A DNA stretch of 30,534 nt from a virus, in IMG/VR virus record IMGVR_UViG_3300005529_000242, positions 1 through 30,534 of that record. One strand, given 5' to 3'. The position numbers and the translations under genes were made by a program. Below are positions 9,764-25,496 of the stretch, piece after piece. Under the pieces are notes generated by a model. That model was not told the DNA's origin and made no database searches. It saw only the letters and a list, made by a program, of their open reading frames with translations. Position 1 is the stretch's first letter, and each line of letters opens with the position of its first letter.

Positions 9764-10104
9764 CGCGCCATCACCACGTCAAACCACGCAATGAGACTTA
9801 TCGTGATAATCACGCAAGCAAGAAAGGCAATAAGACTGTCAATCACCGTGTGAACCTTCTTGCGCGGCGTATAGCCTCCGCGTGCAATGACACCGGCTCC
9901 ACGCTTGGCAAGCCAAACAGACAAAGCTATCAAGCGCTTTCCCGTCCACATGTGAGCGGCCCGAATCCTTACGCGCGGGGCGGGCGGCCCGGGAATCGGA
10001 TCAGGAGACTCCGGGCCGTGTGAGGTAGGCACTGCACGTGCGGGCGGCGCGTCCACGGAGTGCGGACGCGGCGAGAAAGGCGCATGTAACCGGAGGTTGC
10101 TCAT
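9760..10104 (-). CDS. Small protein with one C-terminal membrane span, unknown
   Basis: 114 residues. Residues 1-50 are rich in Pro and Ala (HAPFSPRPHSVDAPPARAVP, PIPGPPAPRVRIR), followed by a basic region (WLAKRGAGVIARGGYTPRKK). A hydrophobic segment follows, 'SLIAFLACVIITISLIAWFDVV' in sense, long enough for one membrane span and lying close to the C-terminus. I do not recognise a family. The gene overlaps the terminase start (ATGA) and the upstream gene by 4 bases, so it is in the packaging operon. A tail-anchored membrane protein there could act in lysis or superinfection control, but nothing in the sequence decides this. Confidence 0.55.
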   Translation of the reverse strand: MSNLRLHAPFSPRPHSVDAPPARAVPTSHGPESPDPIPGPPAPRVRIRAAHMWTGKRLIALSVWLAKRGAGVIARGGYTPRKKVHTVIDSLIAFLACVIITISLIAWFDVVMAR

Positions 10105-10493
10105 ACACGCACCACGATGAGCTGACGAGAGGTCACGTCCATGGCAACAACGGCTTCCGCGAGTGCCCGCCGGGGAAGCGATGCTGTTACGCGGCTGACA
10201 CAGTCTGTGAGCCCGGGGCGGTATCGTTTGGTGCGGTCATATCGGCCAATGAGCGGCTTAGAGTCTGCGTCAACTTCCGCCATTATTGAATCCAGATGGG
10301 CGCGGCAGACGCCTTTACCGTTCCACTTGTGCGTAGCGGGTGCCCCGCACGGGCATTTCTCGGGGTCGTCTCCCCACCAATTTTCATCGTGCAGAATGTA
10401 AGACCAATCCCGCTCCGTCACGTTGAGACTGCGTAGCCCGCTATGACTTCTGACCATCGAATGAAATTCTCTTTGCCGCTCGTTTGGTTTCAT
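10101..10493 (-). CDS. Small Zn-finger-like protein at the head of the packaging operon
   Basis: 130 residues from the ATG at 10493. A purine-rich GGGGAG lies just upstream; the longer TTG-started version would put that ribosome site inside the gene. Residues about 45-67 contain CPCGAPATHKWNGKGVCRAHL, a C-x-C-x13-C-x2-H arrangement that could hold zinc. The rest (VTERDWSYILHDENWWGDD, RYDRTKRYRPGLTDCVSRVTASLPRRALAEAVVAM) is charged and soluble. I do not recognise the family. It is the first gene of the leftward structural block and overlaps the next by ATGA. The position is where a small terminase subunit would normally be, but it has no P27 or HTH features and that role is filled by another gene. 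Confidence 0.6.
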   Translation of the reverse strand: MKPNERQREFHSMVRSHSGLRSLNVTERDWSYILHDENWWGDDPEKCPCGAPATHKWNGKGVCRAHLDSIMAEVDADSKPLIGRYDRTKRYRPGLTDCVSRVTASLPRRALAEAVVAMDVTSRQLIVVRV

Positions 10494-10870: not shown

Positions 10871-13321
10871 ATGTTTGGGACTTTACGAAGGTTGGCAGCC
10901 GCAGCAATTCAACTTGTGCGGCTCCCGAAGACAACGGCAGCCCCGCAATCGCAGAGCGTATCTGTATCACGGATTCCTCTGATTCGTAGCCGCGCGATTG
11001 GCTGCTATCACATCCCGATGAAAGCAAACGGCGGAGACGGCAGGCGCACCAAGGGCAAACGGGACCGCTCATTAAAGATGCGCTCTAACCGGCGGAAGGC
11101 TGCGAGAGCCGCTGTCTTGCTGGCTTTGGCCTATGGCGTTGGCCACGCACAAACGGTGACCATCACCGGCACCAACCTTCCGGCTGCAACAATCACTTGG
11201 CAAGTCCCAACCGGCGGAGCCTTGGGCAACAATGCCGGGCAGATAAGCACGGCTCCCACAACGGCGAACATTACCGGCGGCAGCTTCACCCTCACCGGTG
11301 TGCCCGATACCAGTATCAGCAACCCGCAGAACGTCTGCGTTTCTATCACCGCACACAACTCCGGCGGTTCTCAGATTTTGGGCAGCGGGTACGGCTGCCT
11401 TCAGCCCGCGTACAACAACTATTGGTGTACCAACGGCGTCTGCAACTTCAATCTCTTTCAGCCCTCCGCAAAAACGCTGCCGGTTGCTGTATATGTTGCC
11501 AGCATTAACAATGTTGGCGGCCCCTGGACGTTCGGCAGCGGATCAAGCTGCAACTCCGTAACTCACACGTGCGTCTTCCCGGGGACAGGACAAGGGGGAG
11601 GGGCATGGGCTTGGCAGGGAGCGTGGAGCAATTCAACGGATTACACAGCCGGGGATGCTGTCTCCTATCAGGGCTCTAGCTATTTGTCCCTTGCGGACAA
11701 TACCGGGGTGACTCCGGGAACGAACGGGGCTAATTGGGCTCTAATCGCGCAAGTTGGAGCTACCGGCCCGCAGGGGCCAACAGGAGCCACGGGCGCACAA
11801 GGTCCACAAGGCGCGACGGGACCAACGGGTGCGACCGGCCCTACCGGCCCGCAAGGTGCTACCGGAGCCACGGGAGCCACGGGCGCACAAGGACCGGCGG
11901 GCAATACTCTATGGAACGGGACAAGCGCCCCGGGCGCGGGTACGGGCGTCAATGGGGACTTTTATCTCAACACCACTTCGTCTTGCTTATATGGTCCGAA
12001 GACGGCGGGCGCATGGGGGAGTTGTACTTCGCTCATCGGTGCAACCGGCCCAACGGGACCACAGGGCAACACCGGAGCCACGGGAGCAACAGGAGCAGCG
12101 GGAACGAACGGCAACACCGTTCTTAATGGCACCACAGCCCCATCCAGCGGGACCGGTAACAACGGGGACTTTTATCTCAACACCACGACTAGCTGCCTCT
12201 ATGGTCCTAAGACTTCGGGTGCGTGGTCCGGGTGTACTTCGCTCATCGGCCCGCAAGGCCCGAGCGGGACGGCCTCCGCTGGTGGCTCTCCCTATTCCAT
12301 CCAATACGCCAATGCGAGCAACGCCCTTGCGGGTGCGTCTATTGATGGCCCCGTATGTGGTAAGACTACTGCGGCGGCAGCTCCGGCTAAGTGCGCGTCT
12401 GCGGATATAACCGGGGTCATCGGCGGGGGCGTCTATGACGCAAGCGGAGCGGCAGCGGCGGCACAGGCCGCGAGTGATCCAGCCGGAAGCGCTGCGGCAA
12501 TTACGCTTGCCGGGCTTGGGGGCGTTCCTACCACGCGCGCGGTTAACGGGCACGCTCTTAGCGCCAACGTCACAGTTACGGCGTCTGATGTTGGATTAGG
12601 CAGCGTGACTAACGACGCCCAGACAAAAGCCGCCATCGTTCCTAACACCGCTCCGGCGGCTGGACAAATGCTAGTGGGCAACCCGGGCGGAACGGCATAT
12701 GCTCTTGTATCGATTACTGGTGATTGCGGAGTCACGAGCGCGGGCGCGTGGACATGCACAAAGACCAACGGCAACGCATTTACCGGATTGGCTACATTAG
12801 TTGGGGTGACTGCCGGGGATGTTGCATATTACAACGGTTCGATTTGGACAGTGCTATCAGGTAACGCCGGTGCTGATGCTTGTTTTCATGAGGCGAGCGG
12901 CATCCCCTCGTGGAGCACATGCGGGGGCGGAGGCGGAACGAGCTGGACGACATGGGCGTCTAGCGCAACTAATGCGGCCATCTCAGCCACGAACATTATT
13001 GCTAGTGCAGCTACAACCAATAACGGATACCTCATGCGGTTATCCGCTCGTGTAACTACTGTTGGAAGCGGCTGCACCGGGACGACCGTGTTAACTGTTA
13101 ATCTCATCTACACAGACCCCGCTAACAGCTCTGCTACGACCGTACCGATTGGCACGTTCAACCTTGCGACAAATGGCAACGGTGCGTTGGGGGTAGTGGC
13201 TACGTTCGTGGAGAATGTCTACGCCAAGTCTGCGACGGCAGTACAGTACAGTACCTCGATTGTCACGGACGCGAGCTGCACAACAAAACCGTCATACACA
13301 TTGACAGGGGCGTACCTATGA
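10871..13321 (+). CDS. Collagen-repeat fibre-like protein with internal signal peptide
   Basis: 816 residues from ATG 10871 (GAGGT 4 bases before). Residues 70-94 (MRSNRRKAARAAVLLALAYG then VGHAQ) look exactly like a signal peptide with cleavage at AHA-like 'GHA/Q', so the functional start may be the ATG at 11078, although no good ribosome site precedes it. Next come a beta-rich domain (95-240) with paired cysteines and a chitin/carbohydrate-binding-like W-x-Y-x-x-GD-x-V-x-Y-x-G pattern (about 245-292). Collagen G-x-y repeats follow (296-344 and 391-413), with two copies of a 47-residue module (344-390, 414-460). A tail-fibre-type segment 'VNGHALSANVTVTASDVGLG' sits near 558, and a C-terminal beta domain closes the protein. 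It combines tail-fibre features with a secretion signal. It could be an exported adhesin made by the lysogen, or a fibre with a misread N-terminus. It is coupled by ATGA to the next gene. Confidence 0.8.
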   Translation: MFGTLRRLAAAAIQLVRLPKTTAAPQSQSVSVSRIPLIRSRAIGCYHIPMKANGGDGRRTKGKRDRSLKMRSNRRKAARAAVLLALAYGVGHAQTVTITGTNLPAATITWQVPTGGALGNNAGQISTAPTTANITGGSFTLTGVPDTSISNPQNVCVSITAHNSGGSQILGSGYGCLQPAYNNYWCTNGVCNFNLFQPSAKTLPVAVYVASINNVGGPWTFGSGSSCNSVTHTCVFPGTGQGGGAWAWQGAWSNSTDYTAGDAVSYQGSSYLSLADNTGVTPGTNGANWALIAQVGATGPQGPTGATGAQGPQGATGPTGATGPTGPQGATGATGATGAQGPAGNTLWNGTSAPGAGTGVNGDFYLNTTSSCLYGPKTAGAWGSCTSLIGATGPTGPQGNTGATGATGAAGTNGNTVLNGTTAPSSGTGNNGDFYLNTTTSCLYGPKTSGAWSGCTSLIGPQGPSGTASAGGSPYSIQYANASNALAGASIDGPVCGKTTAAAAPAKCASADITGVIGGGVYDASGAAAAAQAASDPAGSAAAITLAGLGGVPTTRAVNGHALSANVTVTASDVGLGSVTNDAQTKAAIVPNTAPAAGQMLVGNPGGTAYALVSITGDCGVTSAGAWTCTKTNGNAFTGLATLVGVTAGDVAYYNGSIWTVLSGNAGADACFHEASGIPSWSTCGGGGGTSWTTWASSATNAAISATNIIASAATTNNGYLMRLSARVTTVGSGCTGTTVLTVNLIYTDPANSSATTVPIGTFNLATNGNGALGVVATFVENVYAKSATAVQYSTSIVTDASCTTKPSYTLTGAYL
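11759..12115 (+). repeat. Collagen-like G-x-y coding repeats
   Basis: Two runs of 9-base units encoding Gly-x-y triplets (GATGPQGPTGATGAQGPQG and similar) at about 11756-11899 and 12041-12109. They are split by the first 47-residue module. They account for the high local GC, the repetitive DNA and the long antisense open frames in this stretch. Confidence 0.85.
11900..12250 (+). repeat. Tandem 47-residue module within the fibre-like protein
   Basis: Bases 11900-12040 and 12110-12250 encode two closely similar modules: G-N-T-x-x-N-G-T-x-A-P, then NGDFYLNTT, SCLYGPKT, GAW and CTSLIG. Each follows collagen repeats. The two cysteines in each module are conserved and may bridge. The copies differ at many third positions, so the duplication is not recent. 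Confidence 0.8.
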
Positions 13322-19659: not shown

Positions 19660-20139
19660 GTGGGTCTTTTGGTAAAGGTAGACGGCAGCAACAAAGAGTT
19701 TGAACTCGTGGAGGATTTGCTCCAGCCGGGCGTGCTTGCGGACGTTGTGGACAAAGGCGAAGTGGAGAACACATTCAAGCCGGGCACAAAGGTTCACAAG
19801 GCGTATTTTGTCTGGATTGTGGTGGAGGAAGACAGCGACGGCAATAACAAGCGTGTATTCCAGTCTTTCACGGTGAGCATGAATCCGAAGGCGACACTGC
19901 GCAAGTTGTACAAGTCCCTTACCGGGAAAACGGACGAAGAGATTGATGCCATGGACAATGTAGACCTTGAGGCACTCATCGGCACCAAGCGTATGCTCGT
20001 GATGTCCAAGGAAGACGGCGACAACGGCAAGCCTTATGTGAAGATCACGGCTACCATGCCGCTGAAGAGAGGGCAGACCGCTCCCGACATCCCGGCGGAC
20101 TTCGTGCGCAAGCAGGACAAGGACGGGTCAAAAAACTAA
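19660..20139 (+). CDS. Single-stranded DNA-binding protein, short (zero-frame) form
   Basis: 159 residues from GTG 19660 (AGGAG 8 bases upstream). The body resembles a family of phage ssDNA-binding proteins rather than bacterial Ssb: an early 'GVLADVVDKGEVENTFKPGT' strand region, 'KAYFVWIVVEEDSDG', 'FQSFTVSMNPKATLRKLYKS', 'VDLEALIGTKRMLVMSKEDG' and 'KPYVKITATMPLKRGQ'. In this frame the protein ends DGSKN directly at TAA and lacks the acidic C-terminal tip normal for an SSB. The slippery heptamer A_AAA_AAC covers its last two codons, so a longer form is likely (next entry). Confidence 0.75.
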   Translation: MGLLVKVDGSNKEFELVEDLLQPGVLADVVDKGEVENTFKPGTKVHKAYFVWIVVEEDSDGNNKRVFQSFTVSMNPKATLRKLYKSLTGKTDEEIDAMDNVDLEALIGTKRMLVMSKEDGDNGKPYVKITATMPLKRGQTAPDIPADFVRKQDKDGSKN

Positions 20140-20228
20140 CACGGCCACAGCCCGCGAAAGCGCAGACGCCCGAGCGGGATGTGTGGCCGTACACGGATGC
20201 TCCCCTGGAAGATGACATCCCGTTTTGA
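19660..20228 (+). CDS. Single-stranded DNA-binding protein, long form by -1 frameshift
   Basis: If ribosomes slip back one base at AAAAAAC (20130-20136), translation passes the TAA and adds 30 residues: a Pro/Gln-rich linker (LTRPQPAKAQTPERDVWPYT) and DAPLEDDIPF, then TGA at 20226-20228. EDDIPF is almost the classical SSB C-terminal tip (DDDIPF in E. coli), which recruits polymerase, primase and repair proteins. The new stop overlaps the TTG start of the next gene (TTTTGACC), further evidence that this frame is used. Total 189 residues. A one-base homopolymer sequencing error or mutation would give the same picture and must be excluded. Confidence 0.65.
20130..20190 (+). promoter_or_regulatory. 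-1 frameshift signal in the SSB gene
   Basis: Zero-frame codons tcA AAA AAC taa form the canonical slippery heptamer AAAAAAC (20130-20136). Four bases on, ACGGCCACA (20141-20149) pairs perfectly with TGTGGCCGT (20182-20190). Nested inside, CCCGC (20151-20155) pairs with GCGGG (20174-20178). Slippery site, short spacer and a strong two-part stem-loop are the three classic parts of a -1 frameshift element. Confidence 0.7.
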
Positions 20229-20590
20229 CCGCTAGGCAGCGGGACTTGTGGCTTAAATATAGGCTGACTGAGGAAGAGTACGAATCCATCCTTAAACATC
20301 AAGGCGGAGTCTGTGCGGGGTGCGGGGAGCCCCCGCGCAAGACTCGGCTAGCCGTCGATCATGACCACAAGACAGGACGCATTAGAGGGTTGCTGTGTTG
20401 GCTTTGCAATAGAGCTATCGGCATTTTGCTGGACCGTTCCGCTACAGCCACCCGATTGGGCGCGTATCTCGCCGCACCTACCGCGCCCGCAGCACTCGGT
20501 AAAGAGACGTACGGCCTCATCGGAAAGGCCAAGCGCAAAAAGAATATGGTCTATGGTCCGCCAATCGCAACCATTGGCCGGAAAGGGTAA
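20225..20590 (+). CDS. Endonuclease VII-like HNH nuclease
   Basis: 121 residues from TTG 20225, which overlaps the TGA of the long SSB form. A stop codon in this frame lies only 12 bases before, and no ATG is available. The motif set is that of recombination endonuclease VII-like proteins: 'CAGCGEPPRKTRLAVDHDHK' then 'TGRIRGLLCWLCNRAIGILL'. The cysteines C-x2-C ... C-x2-C bind structural zinc and the V-D-H-D-H ... N core forms the HNH active site. Family members cut branched DNA before packaging or act in repair. Coupling to the SSB, and the replication genes that follow, fit a role in processing replicated DNA. Confidence 0.85.
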   Translation: MTARQRDLWLKYRLTEEEYESILKHQGGVCAGCGEPPRKTRLAVDHDHKTGRIRGLLCWLCNRAIGILLDRSATATRLGAYLAAPTAPAALGKETYGLIGKAKRKKNMVYGPPIATIGRKG

Positions 20591-20869: not shown

Positions 20870-21312
20870 AAAGTCCTCATTGCCTGTGAATATTCGGGCA
20901 CGGTGAGGGAGGCATTCCGAAAACGCGGACACGACGCGCATAGCTGCGACCTATTGGACACCGAAATTCCCGGTCCACACTACATCGGAGACGCCTTGGA
21001 GAATCCTATCGGCTGCATATCAACAGCCATCCGGCCCTACGACCAAGTAATTCAGCCTTACCAATTCGGCGCGGACGCGAGCAAGAAGACGTGTCTGTGG
21101 TTGAAGAATTTGCCGCTGCTTAAACCGGTTATGCGTGTCCCGGGTAGACGAGTGATGCACAACGGTAAATGGGTTGAGCGTTGGGCCAACCAAACAGATA
21201 GCGGACAGAAAACAGGCTAGGGCCTTCGGAAAGGCGCGGGCTTGAACGGAGCCGCACATATCAGGGCGTGGCTGATGCGATGGCCGCGCAATGGGGGAGC
21301 ATTGCGAATTAG
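20867..21312 (+). pseudogene. Decayed methyltransferase-like gene (internal deletion plus frameshift)
   Basis: The frame from ACG 20867 reads (M)KVLIACEYSGTVREAFRKRG then HDAHSCDLLDTEIPG. This is the conserved opening of a phage/bacterial family often annotated as DNA (cytosine) methyltransferase-like. The sequence then jumps from 'HYIGDALE' straight to 'NPIGCISTAIRPYDQVIQPY', 'QFG' and 'TCLWLKNLPLLKPV', which in the family lie roughly 90 residues later. The segment with the HPPC-type motif is absent. At 'NQTDSGQ' (near 21210) the zero frame runs to a stop at 21220. The family's C-terminus, 'NRLGPSERRGLERSRTYQGV' and 'ADAMAAQWG', is present in the -1 frame to TAG 21312. With the centre missing and the end out of frame, the enzyme is most likely dead. 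Confidence 0.75.
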
Positions 21313-22866: not shown

Positions 22867-23457
22867 GTGCTAATCATCGGATTCGGACACAGAGCGCGGC
22901 AGGGGAAGAATACTGCCGCGCAAGCTGTTTTGGAGGCGTGCCCGCTTGACACCGATGTACACATCTACGCCTTTGCGGATGCATTGAAGCACGAAGTCCG
23001 TGTCCTCTGCGCTAAGTATGGAAGCCAATTTGAACTCATTCGGGCGTGGAAGGCTGAACGCTTCATGCCTGAATGGGTGCAGTGTGAAGAGCCAAAACCC
23101 CGCTCGCTCTTGCAGTGGTGGGGGACGGACTTTAGACGGGCAAAAGACCCGGATTATTGGGTAAAGCGTCTCCGCAAAACGCTGGAGGCGCACAACCCCG
23201 AATTGGCACTCATCACAGATGTCCGCTTTCCCAACGAAACGGACTTTATCCACCAGTTGGGTGGGGTTGTAGTCAAAGTTACCCGCATTGGCAATCCTGA
23301 TGTCAACGTCCATGAGCACCCGAGCGAAGCTGAGTTAGATAGCTATACGGGTTGGGACTACCACATCAAAGCCGCAACGGTAGACGACTGTAAAGCGCAG
23401 GCAATTCAGCTTTACGGGAGGCTCCGTGCTTTACGCGGACTTGGAAACATTCAGTGA
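22867..23457 (+). CDS. Deoxynucleoside monophosphate kinase-like protein
   Basis: 196 residues from GTG 22867, with GGGAGG 6 bases upstream. The P-loop 'GFGHRARQGKNTAA' is at residues 5-18. 'AFADALKHEVRVLC', 'PRSLLQWWGTDFRRAKDPDY', 'WVKRL' and 'ALITDVRFPNE' are hallmarks of phage dNMP kinases (T4 gp1-like): the family has F-A-x-x-L-K, the L-Q-x-x-G-T-D/E-x-x-R motif and the D-V-R-F-x-N-E motif. It would raise dNTP precursor supply for phage replication. Its last 32 bases overlap the start of the DNA polymerase exonuclease gene. Confidence 0.85.
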   Translation: MLIIGFGHRARQGKNTAAQAVLEACPLDTDVHIYAFADALKHEVRVLCAKYGSQFELIRAWKAERFMPEWVQCEEPKPRSLLQWWGTDFRRAKDPDYWVKRLRKTLEAHNPELALITDVRFPNETDFIHQLGGVVVKVTRIGNPDVNVHEHPSEAELDSYTGWDYHIKAATVDDCKAQAIQLYGRLRALRGLGNIQ

Positions 23458-24238
23458 ATTAGACATCAAGGCCACGTCCTTAGATCAATACGCCAACCAT
23501 CCGAGCACGCGGATTTTGATGTGTGCGTACGCGGGTGAAACCGGGCCGGTTGAGCTGTGGGAAGAGTCAGACGGCAAAGGCCCGCTCGTCCAGCTCATTG
23601 CGCGGATGCGTAAAGAAACGTGCGTTGCGTGGAATGTGGGCTTTGAAAACAATCTCACGCGGGCCGTGTGGCACGTCCGCTTTAAGTGGATAGACGCAAT
23701 GGTCTATTCGCTGTACGCGGGGCTGCCTGCGGGGTTGAAGAGCGCAGTTAAGACGCCGTTCTTCGCAGACGCAGAGGAAGCCACGAGCAAAGAAACGGTG
23801 CTCATCAACAAATTCTGCAAGCCGAGCAAAAGCGGAGAACCGCACAACAGAGACACAGACCCCGAAGATTGGGCCGCCTTCTGTGATTACTGCAAACGGG
23901 ACGTTTACTCCACCCGCGCAATCCTTCAATGGATCATGGCGCGGTATGACTTCCCTCCCCGCGAGCTGCGGGCTTGGCAGATAGACCAACGCATTAACGA
24001 ACGCGGGATGCCTATGGACCGCAAGACCACAGAGCGGGCATGGGCGGAGGCGCAGCGGTTGCAAGTCCGCGAGTACGAACGGCTGAAAGAGCTAACCGGG
24101 CTGGACAATCCCAACTCACCGGCTCAATTGCTTGCGTGGCTGAAAGAACGCGACTATCCATACGGCGGACTCAGCAAAGAGTTGGTATTGAAGGCCCTCA
24201 AAGAAGAGCCGGACGGCGAGACAGACGAAGATGAATAA
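23426..24238 (+). CDS. Family A DNA polymerase, 3'-5' exonuclease chain
   Basis: 270 residues from GTG 23426 (GGGAGG 4 bases upstream). Exonuclease motifs are intact: Exo I 'YADLETF' (D5, E7), Exo II 'VAWNVGFENNL', Exo III 'FCDYCKRDVYSTRAI' (Y and D). The C-terminal part (RELRAWQIDQRINERGMPMD, NSPAQLLAWLKERDYPYGGL) is the region leading into the polymerase thumb in one-chain phage polymerases. The frame stops at GAA TAA within the start region of the next gene (ATGAATAA). The two chains together have the length of one T7-like or phage family A polymerase. This chain would give proofreading. Confidence 0.85.
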   Translation: MLYADLETFSELDIKATSLDQYANHPSTRILMCAYAGETGPVELWEESDGKGPLVQLIARMRKETCVAWNVGFENNLTRAVWHVRFKWIDAMVYSLYAGLPAGLKSAVKTPFFADAEEATSKETVLINKFCKPSKSGEPHNRDTDPEDWAAFCDYCKRDVYSTRAILQWIMARYDFPPRELRAWQIDQRINERGMPMDRKTTERAWAEAQRLQVREYERLKELTGLDNPNSPAQLLAWLKERDYPYGGLSKELVLKALKEEPDGETDEDE

Positions 24239-25496
24239 CGAAGCACGCCAAGCATTGCGGCTTAGGCTGGCCGGGGCCAAGTCATCCATCAAAAAGCTGC
24301 CTAAGATTCTTGAGCTGCTTTCCCCCGATGACCGGCTCCGGTTTCAATACTCGTTTTACAAGGCGCACACCGGCAGATGGGCGGGACGCGGAGCGCAGCT
24401 TCAAAACCTGAAGGCGGCCCGCACCAAAGAAGAGAAAGCGATGGTTGCCGCTGTCCTCAAAATGCTAGAGGAAGGCCGCGCTGTCCTCGATCTTGACGCG
24501 CTCTCACTGGCGTTGCGTCCGCTGCTAATGGCTCCCGAAGGAAAGAAAATTGTTCTTGCGGATTTTAAGAGCGTAGAGAATCGGGTGTTGGCTTGGGCAT
24601 CCGGCTGCGAAGCCATGATGCAGGTTTACAGAGAGGGCAGAGACCCTTACATAGACTTCGCCTCACGCATGGAGGGCTGTGACTACTCGGACGTTACAGT
24701 CGAGATGCGGCAGCAAGCCAAACCGGCCACGCTAGGCGCGGGCTTTGGGCTTGGAGGCGGTCAGCTCATCCGCAAGTGCAAATGCGCGTGCAAGTACGTT
24801 TGGAACGTCAAGCCAGAAGTCACGGAAACGGTGTGTCCATGTTGCGGTAAAGATGTCCTGCCCGGTATGCCGCAAAAGACGGGGCTGTGGCGCTACGCGG
24901 AAATGATGGGCATAGACCTTTCGCAAGAACGGGCGCAAGCCCAAGTGGATGCGTTCCGCGAAACGTTTATGGAGGTAGCGCAGTGGTGGTACTACCTTGA
25001 GGAAGCATATGCGGGCGCGTGTCTTAAGAGACGGAATCAGTACATTGAATCGTCTCTTGGCTGCAAGCTTGTGGTTCGTTGGCAAGACCCCGCACTGCGT
25101 ATTGTCCTCCCGAGCGGGCGAGAGTTGGTATACCCCAACGCATACGCACGCACCGAGAGGACACCGCGCGGCGGAAAGAAGCTGATTCTAGGGTATGAAA
25201 CCGAGCGCGGCAATTGGGGCGTAGTCCACACGTACGGCGGGCGCATTTGCGAAAACATCGTACAGGCGATTGCCCGGGACTGTCTTGTGGACGCCATGAT
25301 TGCGGTTGAGGACGAAGAGCCAAAGGACGGCATGGTCACAATTGGGCACACGCATGACGAGCTGCTCAATGAAGCCAATGAGTCCGATGTAACCGCGCTG
25401 GATAGGCTAATCGGCTACATGAGCCGGACGCCCGTGTGGGCACCCGGTCTTATTTTGGCAGCGGACGGCCACGAAGGTAAGAGGTATGAAAAATGA
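24231..25496 (+). CDS. Family A DNA polymerase, polymerase chain with Cys-rich insert
   Basis: 421 residues from ATG 24231, overlapping the exonuclease stop by 8 bases. It starts at the thumb ('RQALRLRLAGAKSSIKKLPK'), then has 'YKAHTGRWAGRGAQLQNL' (35-60), motif A 'LADFKSVENRVLAW' (109-122), motif B 'RQQAKPATLGAGFGLGGG' (160-177) and motif C 'HTHDELLNE' (373-381). Right after motif B is an insertion with six cysteines, 'CKCACKYVW' (183-191) and 'VCPCCGKD' (201-208), which looks like a zinc ribbon in the fingers. The polymerase needs the thumb and exonuclease chain for full function, so the two proteins probably form a complex. ATGA overlap links it to the following gene. Confidence 0.9.
   Translation: MNNEARQALRLRLAGAKSSIKKLPKILELLSPDDRLRFQYSFYKAHTGRWAGRGAQLQNLKAARTKEEKAMVAAVLKMLEEGRAVLDLDALSLALRPLLMAPEGKKIVLADFKSVENRVLAWASGCEAMMQVYREGRDPYIDFASRMEGCDYSDVTVEMRQQAKPATLGAGFGLGGGQLIRKCKCACKYVWNVKPEVTETVCPCCGKDVLPGMPQKTGLWRYAEMMGIDLSQERAQAQVDAFRETFMEVAQWWYYLEEAYAGACLKRRNQYIESSLGCKLVVRWQDPALRIVLPSGRELVYPNAYARTERTPRGGKKLILGYETERGNWGVVHTYGGRICENIVQAIARDCLVDAMIAVEDEEPKDGMVTIGHTHDELLNEANESDVTALDRLIGYMSRTPVWAPGLILAADGHEGKRYEK

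Follow-up and report, generated by a model that had tools for sequence, protein, structure and literature searches.

A putative programmed -1 frameshift may add an EDDIPF docking tip to a share of a phage SSB

Two putative forms of one SSB

An ssDNA-binding protein (SSB) gene of a temperate tailed phage probably gives rise to both a tail-less and a tailed protein through programmed -1 ribosomal frameshifting. Under this mechanism, the majority of ribosomes would terminate at the TAA at 20137 and release a 159-aa SSB without a tail, like the proteins of its nearest relatives. A hairpin 4-5 nt past the slippery heptamer A_AAA_AAC would stall ribosomes on the heptamer, and a fraction of them would re-pair one base back to produce a longer SSB of 189 aa, whose 30 additional residues end in EDDIPF, the standard docking tip in bacteria. 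This form may dock host or phage replication and repair proteins, and the short and tailed forms may mix on DNA. Ribosomes ending at the TGA at 20226 would also be positioned to initiate the endonuclease VII gene at an overlapping TTG. We infer the slip and its rate, the mixing on DNA, the binding of partners and the coupling to endonuclease VII; the function suggested for the two forms is drawn by analogy from the HK620 and Enc34 SSBs. We also lean slightly towards a broader proposition, namely that the phage sets the fraction of tip-bearing SSB by frameshifting, may tie its endonuclease VII output to it, and evolved this arrangement within a tip-less lineage. The degrees of belief worded here for this reading and its alternatives are judgements, not computed values.

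Genomic context and sequence features

The window, that is the whole stretch of DNA analysed, is a virus record of 30,534 bases. It belongs to a temperate tailed phage and contains an integrase, a terminase, a head protease and a replication block. The SSB ORF is located inside the replication gene cluster, and the features of the site are as follows.

19660-20139, + strand: SSB core ORF of 159 aa with a GTG start, giving the zero-frame product without tail (PHROG 862; predicted beta-barrel)
20113-20123, + strand: weak purine-rich (Shine-Dalgarno-like) stretch upstream of the heptamer, recognised from sequence only
20130-20136, + strand: slippery heptamer A_AAA_AAC in the zero-frame phase, from sequence
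20137-20139, + strand: zero-frame stop TAA directly after the heptamer, placed by alignment a few residues from the ends of tail-less relatives
20136-20228, + strand: -1 frame extension of 30 codons plus TGA, LTRPQPAKAQTPERDVWPYTDAPLEDDIPF, from translation and codon usage
20141-20190, + strand: stem-loop, a candidate frameshift stimulator, from folding energy and z-score
20208-20225, + strand: EDDIPF, an SSB-type acidic docking tip, from sequence and zero-frame counterparts in relatives
20225-20590, + strand: endonuclease VII gene with a TTG start (Pfam Endonuclease_7, 1.1e-20)

The role of the purine-rich stretch is uncertain because the same bases encode conserved residues.

Several other regions of the window deserve description. 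A long ORF at 10871-13321 contains collagen-like GPTGATG repeats and probably encodes a fibre or host-range protein. The Family A DNA polymerase is represented by an exonuclease ORF (23426-24238) and a polymerase ORF (24231-25496) that overlap by a few bases. This split is common to the window and the records L002 and L005; the polymerase is continuous in L003 and apparently also in L007, L014 and L015. Finally, 0.7 kb downstream of the SSB site, positions 20870-21294 hold a remnant of a phage DNA methyltransferase gene (PHROG 757). Compared with the intact gene in L007 (about 9857-10432), it has lost an internal segment and changes frame, indicating that genes of this contig can decay.

Identification of the core protein

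The initial annotation had taken the core protein for an SSB, and this identity was borne out by family match, predicted fold and gene context. The window protein matched the PHROG 862 profile with an E-value of 1.3e-4. The same profile matched relatives 61-65% identical to it at 4e-4 and 2e-3 and relatives 38-40% identical at 1e-9 to 7e-11, with relatives overall reaching 1e-11 or better. The match of the window protein was not reported in a stricter whole-record profile search. PHROG 862 is a function-unknown family in that library; its members here adjoin DNA polymerase and exonuclease genes, and one of them is annotated as a putative ssDNA-binding protein. An AlphaFold2 model built from an 18-row alignment showed a five-strand barrel (pLDDT 79.5), of which the best PDB match (E-value of 1.5e-4) was PrgE, an OB-fold ssDNA-binding protein (PMC11137577). 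The TM-scores to PrgE were moderate (0.43-0.49 of the query), so that the OB-fold assignment is good, not certain. The viral structures matched by the model were mostly uncharacterised phage proteins, with DUF669 and SSB entries among them, and the HK620 SSB is a proven SSB within the phage DUF669 proteins (PMC5928155). Sequence profile and model together support the product of the ORF at 19660-20139 being a phage OB-fold SSB, and the modelled fold suggests that it binds ssDNA.

Slippery heptamer and downstream hairpin

The SSB gene starts with GTG at 19660 and its 3' end reads GAC GGG TCA AAA AAC TAA, which confirms the gene end described in the initial annotation. The A-run consists of six A (20130-20135) and is followed by C at 20136 and TAA at 20137-20139; the heptamer in the SSB reading phase is therefore A_AAA_AAC, and the zero frame ends directly behind it, as in programmed -1 frameshifting. 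We counted in-phase heptamers of the form X_XXY_YYZ (three identical bases, three identical bases, any base) in 28 genes of the window, a list that leaves aside the tail-chaperone gene. Among the 22 found, the one in the SSB gene was the only all-A heptamer and the only one abutting a stop, and its A6 run is one of three on the + strand. In E. coli, A_AAA_AAC is far less shift-prone than A_AAA_AAG, which counts against frameshifting at this site; a virus of halophilic archaea uses A_AAA_AAC for its tail-chaperone shift (PMC5009743).

The window contains an apparent second -1 site. A tail-protein pair on the - strand (846-1738) has C_CCA_AAC in phase at 1346-1340. The zero-frame stop follows 21 nt later, the -1 extension spans 164 codons and a structure of -21.3 lies behind the heptamer, so that the pair looks like a classical phage tail-chaperone frameshift. 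This heptamer, too, puts AAC in the A site, and sites of this type may therefore be functional in the host.

The nested stem-loop at 20141-20190 was likewise confirmed. It consists of a 9-bp outer stem and nested stems, and begins 4 nt past the heptamer, with 5 nt to the first C-G pair. It folded at -30.7 kcal/mol, whereas shuffled sequences averaged -17.4 (z = -4.7; 0 of 200 shuffles as good), corresponding to 0.60 kcal/mol per nt against a local average of 0.24. No other of the 22 counted heptamers had a structure as strong behind it (about -30.6 kcal/mol for SSB, -21.3 for the next), and only a few 53-base segments of the window form structures of comparable strength. Published criteria for bacterial frameshift sites place the hairpin 4-10 nt after the motif, and IS3 sites average 0.45 kcal/mol per nt (PMC4066793). 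The SSB hairpin, at 4-5 nt and 0.60 per nt, agrees with this description of a stimulator. No Rfam family was found at the site, and a terminator was rejected since the hairpin has no T-run.

Hairpins also occur soon after the SSB stop in several tail-less relatives, those of L002 and L018 being terminator-like, which makes the window hairpin less special than its z-score alone suggests. In comparison with them, the window hairpin is stronger, has no T-run and lies within coding sequence. The post-SSB hairpins of L005 (6468-6500) and L006 (6565-6600) have a common loop, CACCCGGACTCCGGCCTT, on different stems, each of which pairs, and are possibly a conserved regulatory or terminator element. 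Within the endonuclease VII gene of the window, a very strong RNA structure (-36 kcal/mol in 53 nt) is present on the + strand at 20296-20360.

The -1 frame extension and the endonuclease VII start

Translation of the -1 frame from 20136 confirmed 30 open codons ending in EDDIPF before the TGA at 20226-20228. The -1 frame is open from 19971, and upstream of the tail it contains no ATG, GTG or TTG; the only GTG, at 20181, lies inside the tail. Therefore, the full tail can be made only by reading on from SSB, and its independent initiation was rejected. The codon-usage score of the tail was +5.7 in the -1 frame and -10.5 and -10.6 in the other two, in comparison with an average of +6.3 for true-frame stretches; only 0.3% of wrong-frame stretches reach the value of the tail. 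The -1 frame thus resembles coding sequence and has a sensible protein end in EDDIPF. In random sequence with matching dinucleotide composition, [DE][DE][ILVM]PF directly before a stop occurs at 8e-6 of stops. It was found 20 times in about 90,000 real stop-to-stop frames gathered for the analysis, almost all of these being the ends of ordinary long open frames and several having been chosen by a pattern containing the motif. A search for the tail peptide in phages gave no real match, and its pattern had no match in IMG/VR.

The TGA of the tail overlaps the TTG (20225-20227) at which endonuclease VII starts, in agreement with the initial annotation. This start aligns with those of homologous genes, and the L018 homologue also uses TTG. 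The L018 gene has GGAGG close by; the window gene has no good ribosome-binding site at a normal distance, GGAAG ending 13 nt upstream. Translation of endonuclease VII may therefore depend on ribosomes finishing the tail, and its start is probably coupled to them.

Comparison with family members

Direct single-sequence searches with the SSB found no match in viral contigs, genome contigs or phage records. Relatives were reached through the neighbouring DNA polymerase and then by profiles, which gave another 35 distinct members of the family whose C-terminus could be read. An ordinary-frame extension follows the core in 27 of them, and in 23 it is acidic and closes with F, Y or W (e.g. IEDEDIPF, TIDDSDVPF, DLDDDIPF and GEEF), indicating that such a tip is a normal feature of the family. 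Tips of the (D/E)DDIPF type form the SSB C-terminal hub that binds polymerase, primase and repair enzymes, and the importance given to them in the initial annotation is supported for this family.

The eight nearest relatives (L002, L005, L006, L007, L009, L014, L015 and L018; 38-65% identical) terminate immediately behind the core motif (DFVRKQD or similar), and a tip is absent from every frame. The tip pattern was found nowhere in their records, so that the tip is not carried on another protein there. The zero-frame product of the window ends in DGSKN and has no acidic aromatic-ended tip in its ordinary frame; since the eight close relatives are also without it, such a tip is not required for membership of the family. 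The zero-frame stop of the window aligns within a few residues of the ends of these relatives, indicating that the short form is a normal product of the family. In the tree, the window falls inside the tail-less group with support of 100/99 for six rows and 99/97 for seven, and it alone in its clade has a tip, through the -1 frame only. In L009, the nearest relative, the SSB and endonuclease VII genes overlap at ATGA, and the window has about 85 extra bases at this point, which are exactly the tail. Either the lineage of the window regained the tip, or the lineages around it lost theirs on several occasions.

A shifted-frame tip was found in none of the other 35 family members. A scan of IMG/VR for an A6 run, a stop and DIPF gave 19 stretches, of which seven were in phase, with no second cassette among them; these seven are continuous frames rather than shifts, and several resemble plain SSBs. 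Conservation of the heptamer and stem in homologues, proposed earlier as a check, was not found. The eight nearest relatives are tail-less in all frames, so they neither share the cassette nor speak against it. The frameshift reading is supported in part, in that its parts are real, cassette-like and far beyond chance; it did not gain a homologue with the same arrangement.

Alternative explanations

The strongest competitor, which we nevertheless consider unlikely, is that the gene encodes an ordinary single-frame tailed SSB whose A-run has changed in length, by an assembly error or by a frameshift mutation in a decaying prophage or minority variant. The heptamer would then be a mere homopolymer and the hairpin incidental. 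Zero-frame tails are the norm of the family, the same arrangement is seen in no homologue, and few A-runs in the window are as long as the one that holds the junction, such runs being the likeliest place for indels; hairpins in other regions downstream of SSB and the truncated, frame-changed methyltransferase gene nearby also fit this explanation. It does not account for a zero-frame stop that is the very next codon and falls where tail-less relatives end, or for the strongest heptamer-linked structure of those counted standing at canonical spacing. No other replication gene compared has a frame break except the split DNA polymerase, which is also found in L002 and L005. Short-read assemblies seldom contain indel errors in six-base runs, the platform of this record not being stated. 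Our confidence in programmed frameshifting is held down because an indel in the A-run would join the two frames, because the methyltransferase gene has decayed and because relatives have hairpins after SSB. It is also held down because no tailed close relative was found, which leaves the cassette without comparative conservation.

Transcriptional slippage on the A-run, putting the tail in frame in part of the mRNAs, would yield the same two proteins. A-runs can slip in transcription and the Thermus dnaX gene works in this way, but known bacterial cases use about nine A or T (PMC5009743). With six A here, and with a hairpin at ribosomal spacing left unexplained, we regard slippage as very improbable. 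The least credible alternative is that the tail is never made and that a tail-less SSB is followed by an 85 bp spacer with a regulatory hairpin before endonuclease VII, as might be suggested by the eight tip-less relatives, which are tail-less in all frames and several of which have hairpins at the corresponding gap; against it stand the placement of EDDIPF right before a stop in an SSB gene (a chance near 1e-5), gene-like codon usage in exactly the -1 frame and a hairpin without a T-run.

Comparison with known systems

Frameshift-added functional C-termini and SSB docking tips are each known, and their combination is new as far as we found. The initial annotation knew of no described SSB of this kind, and our literature search, which included a review and surveys and covered few subscription papers, likewise gave no case of an SSB with programmed frameshifting. 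SSB tails recruit many genome-maintenance proteins, and the number of tails on coated DNA is thought to matter. To our knowledge, known SSBs have one tip per chain or none. If programmed frameshifting is confirmed, the window would hold a natural gene making both forms at a ratio set by translation, so that tip density itself is regulated, and would offer a ready-made system for studying it. It would also represent a route by which a lost docking tip can be regained without every molecule carrying it.

The site resembles those of IS3-family transposases in having an A-rich heptamer followed 4-10 nt on by a strong hairpin. In those elements, however, the shift fuses two parts of a transposase, an unrelated protein. 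Phage tail chaperones (gpG/gpGT) provide another likeness, as phage genes whose minor product carries a C-terminal extension from the -1 frame; they serve tail assembly and their extension is long, whereas the SSB extension would be a 30-aa docking-tip tail on a DNA-binding protein.

As a protein, the window SSB is closest to the PHROG 862/DUF669-like and T7 gp2.5-like SSBs, such as those of HK620 and Enc34, which are OB-fold SSBs of replication or recombination modules. In these, an acidic and often aromatic-ended C-terminus is encoded in the ordinary frame and carried by every molecule, whereas the window SSB has a core that stops early and a tip encoded in another frame. When the HK620 SSB loses its NDYPPF end, it no longer stimulates its partner Sak4 and Sak4 no longer binds it (PMC5928155), and removal of the tail of the Enc34 SSB permits dsDNA binding (PMC5686142).

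The likeness to dnaX (gamma/tau) lies in one replication gene giving two forms that differ by a C-terminal part contacting partners. The E. coli dnaX gene differs in its A_AAA_AAG heptamer, in its upstream Shine-Dalgarno stimulator and in yielding the shorter protein by frameshifting. For a few bacteria, tau is believed to be the frameshift product, and there the gamma stop immediately follows the shift site (PMC5009743), which is the same layout as that of the window SSB. The dnaX product is a clamp-loader subunit and not an SSB. If the frameshift is real, a DNA-coating protein would join dnaX among the few replication proteins for which frameshifting yields two forms.
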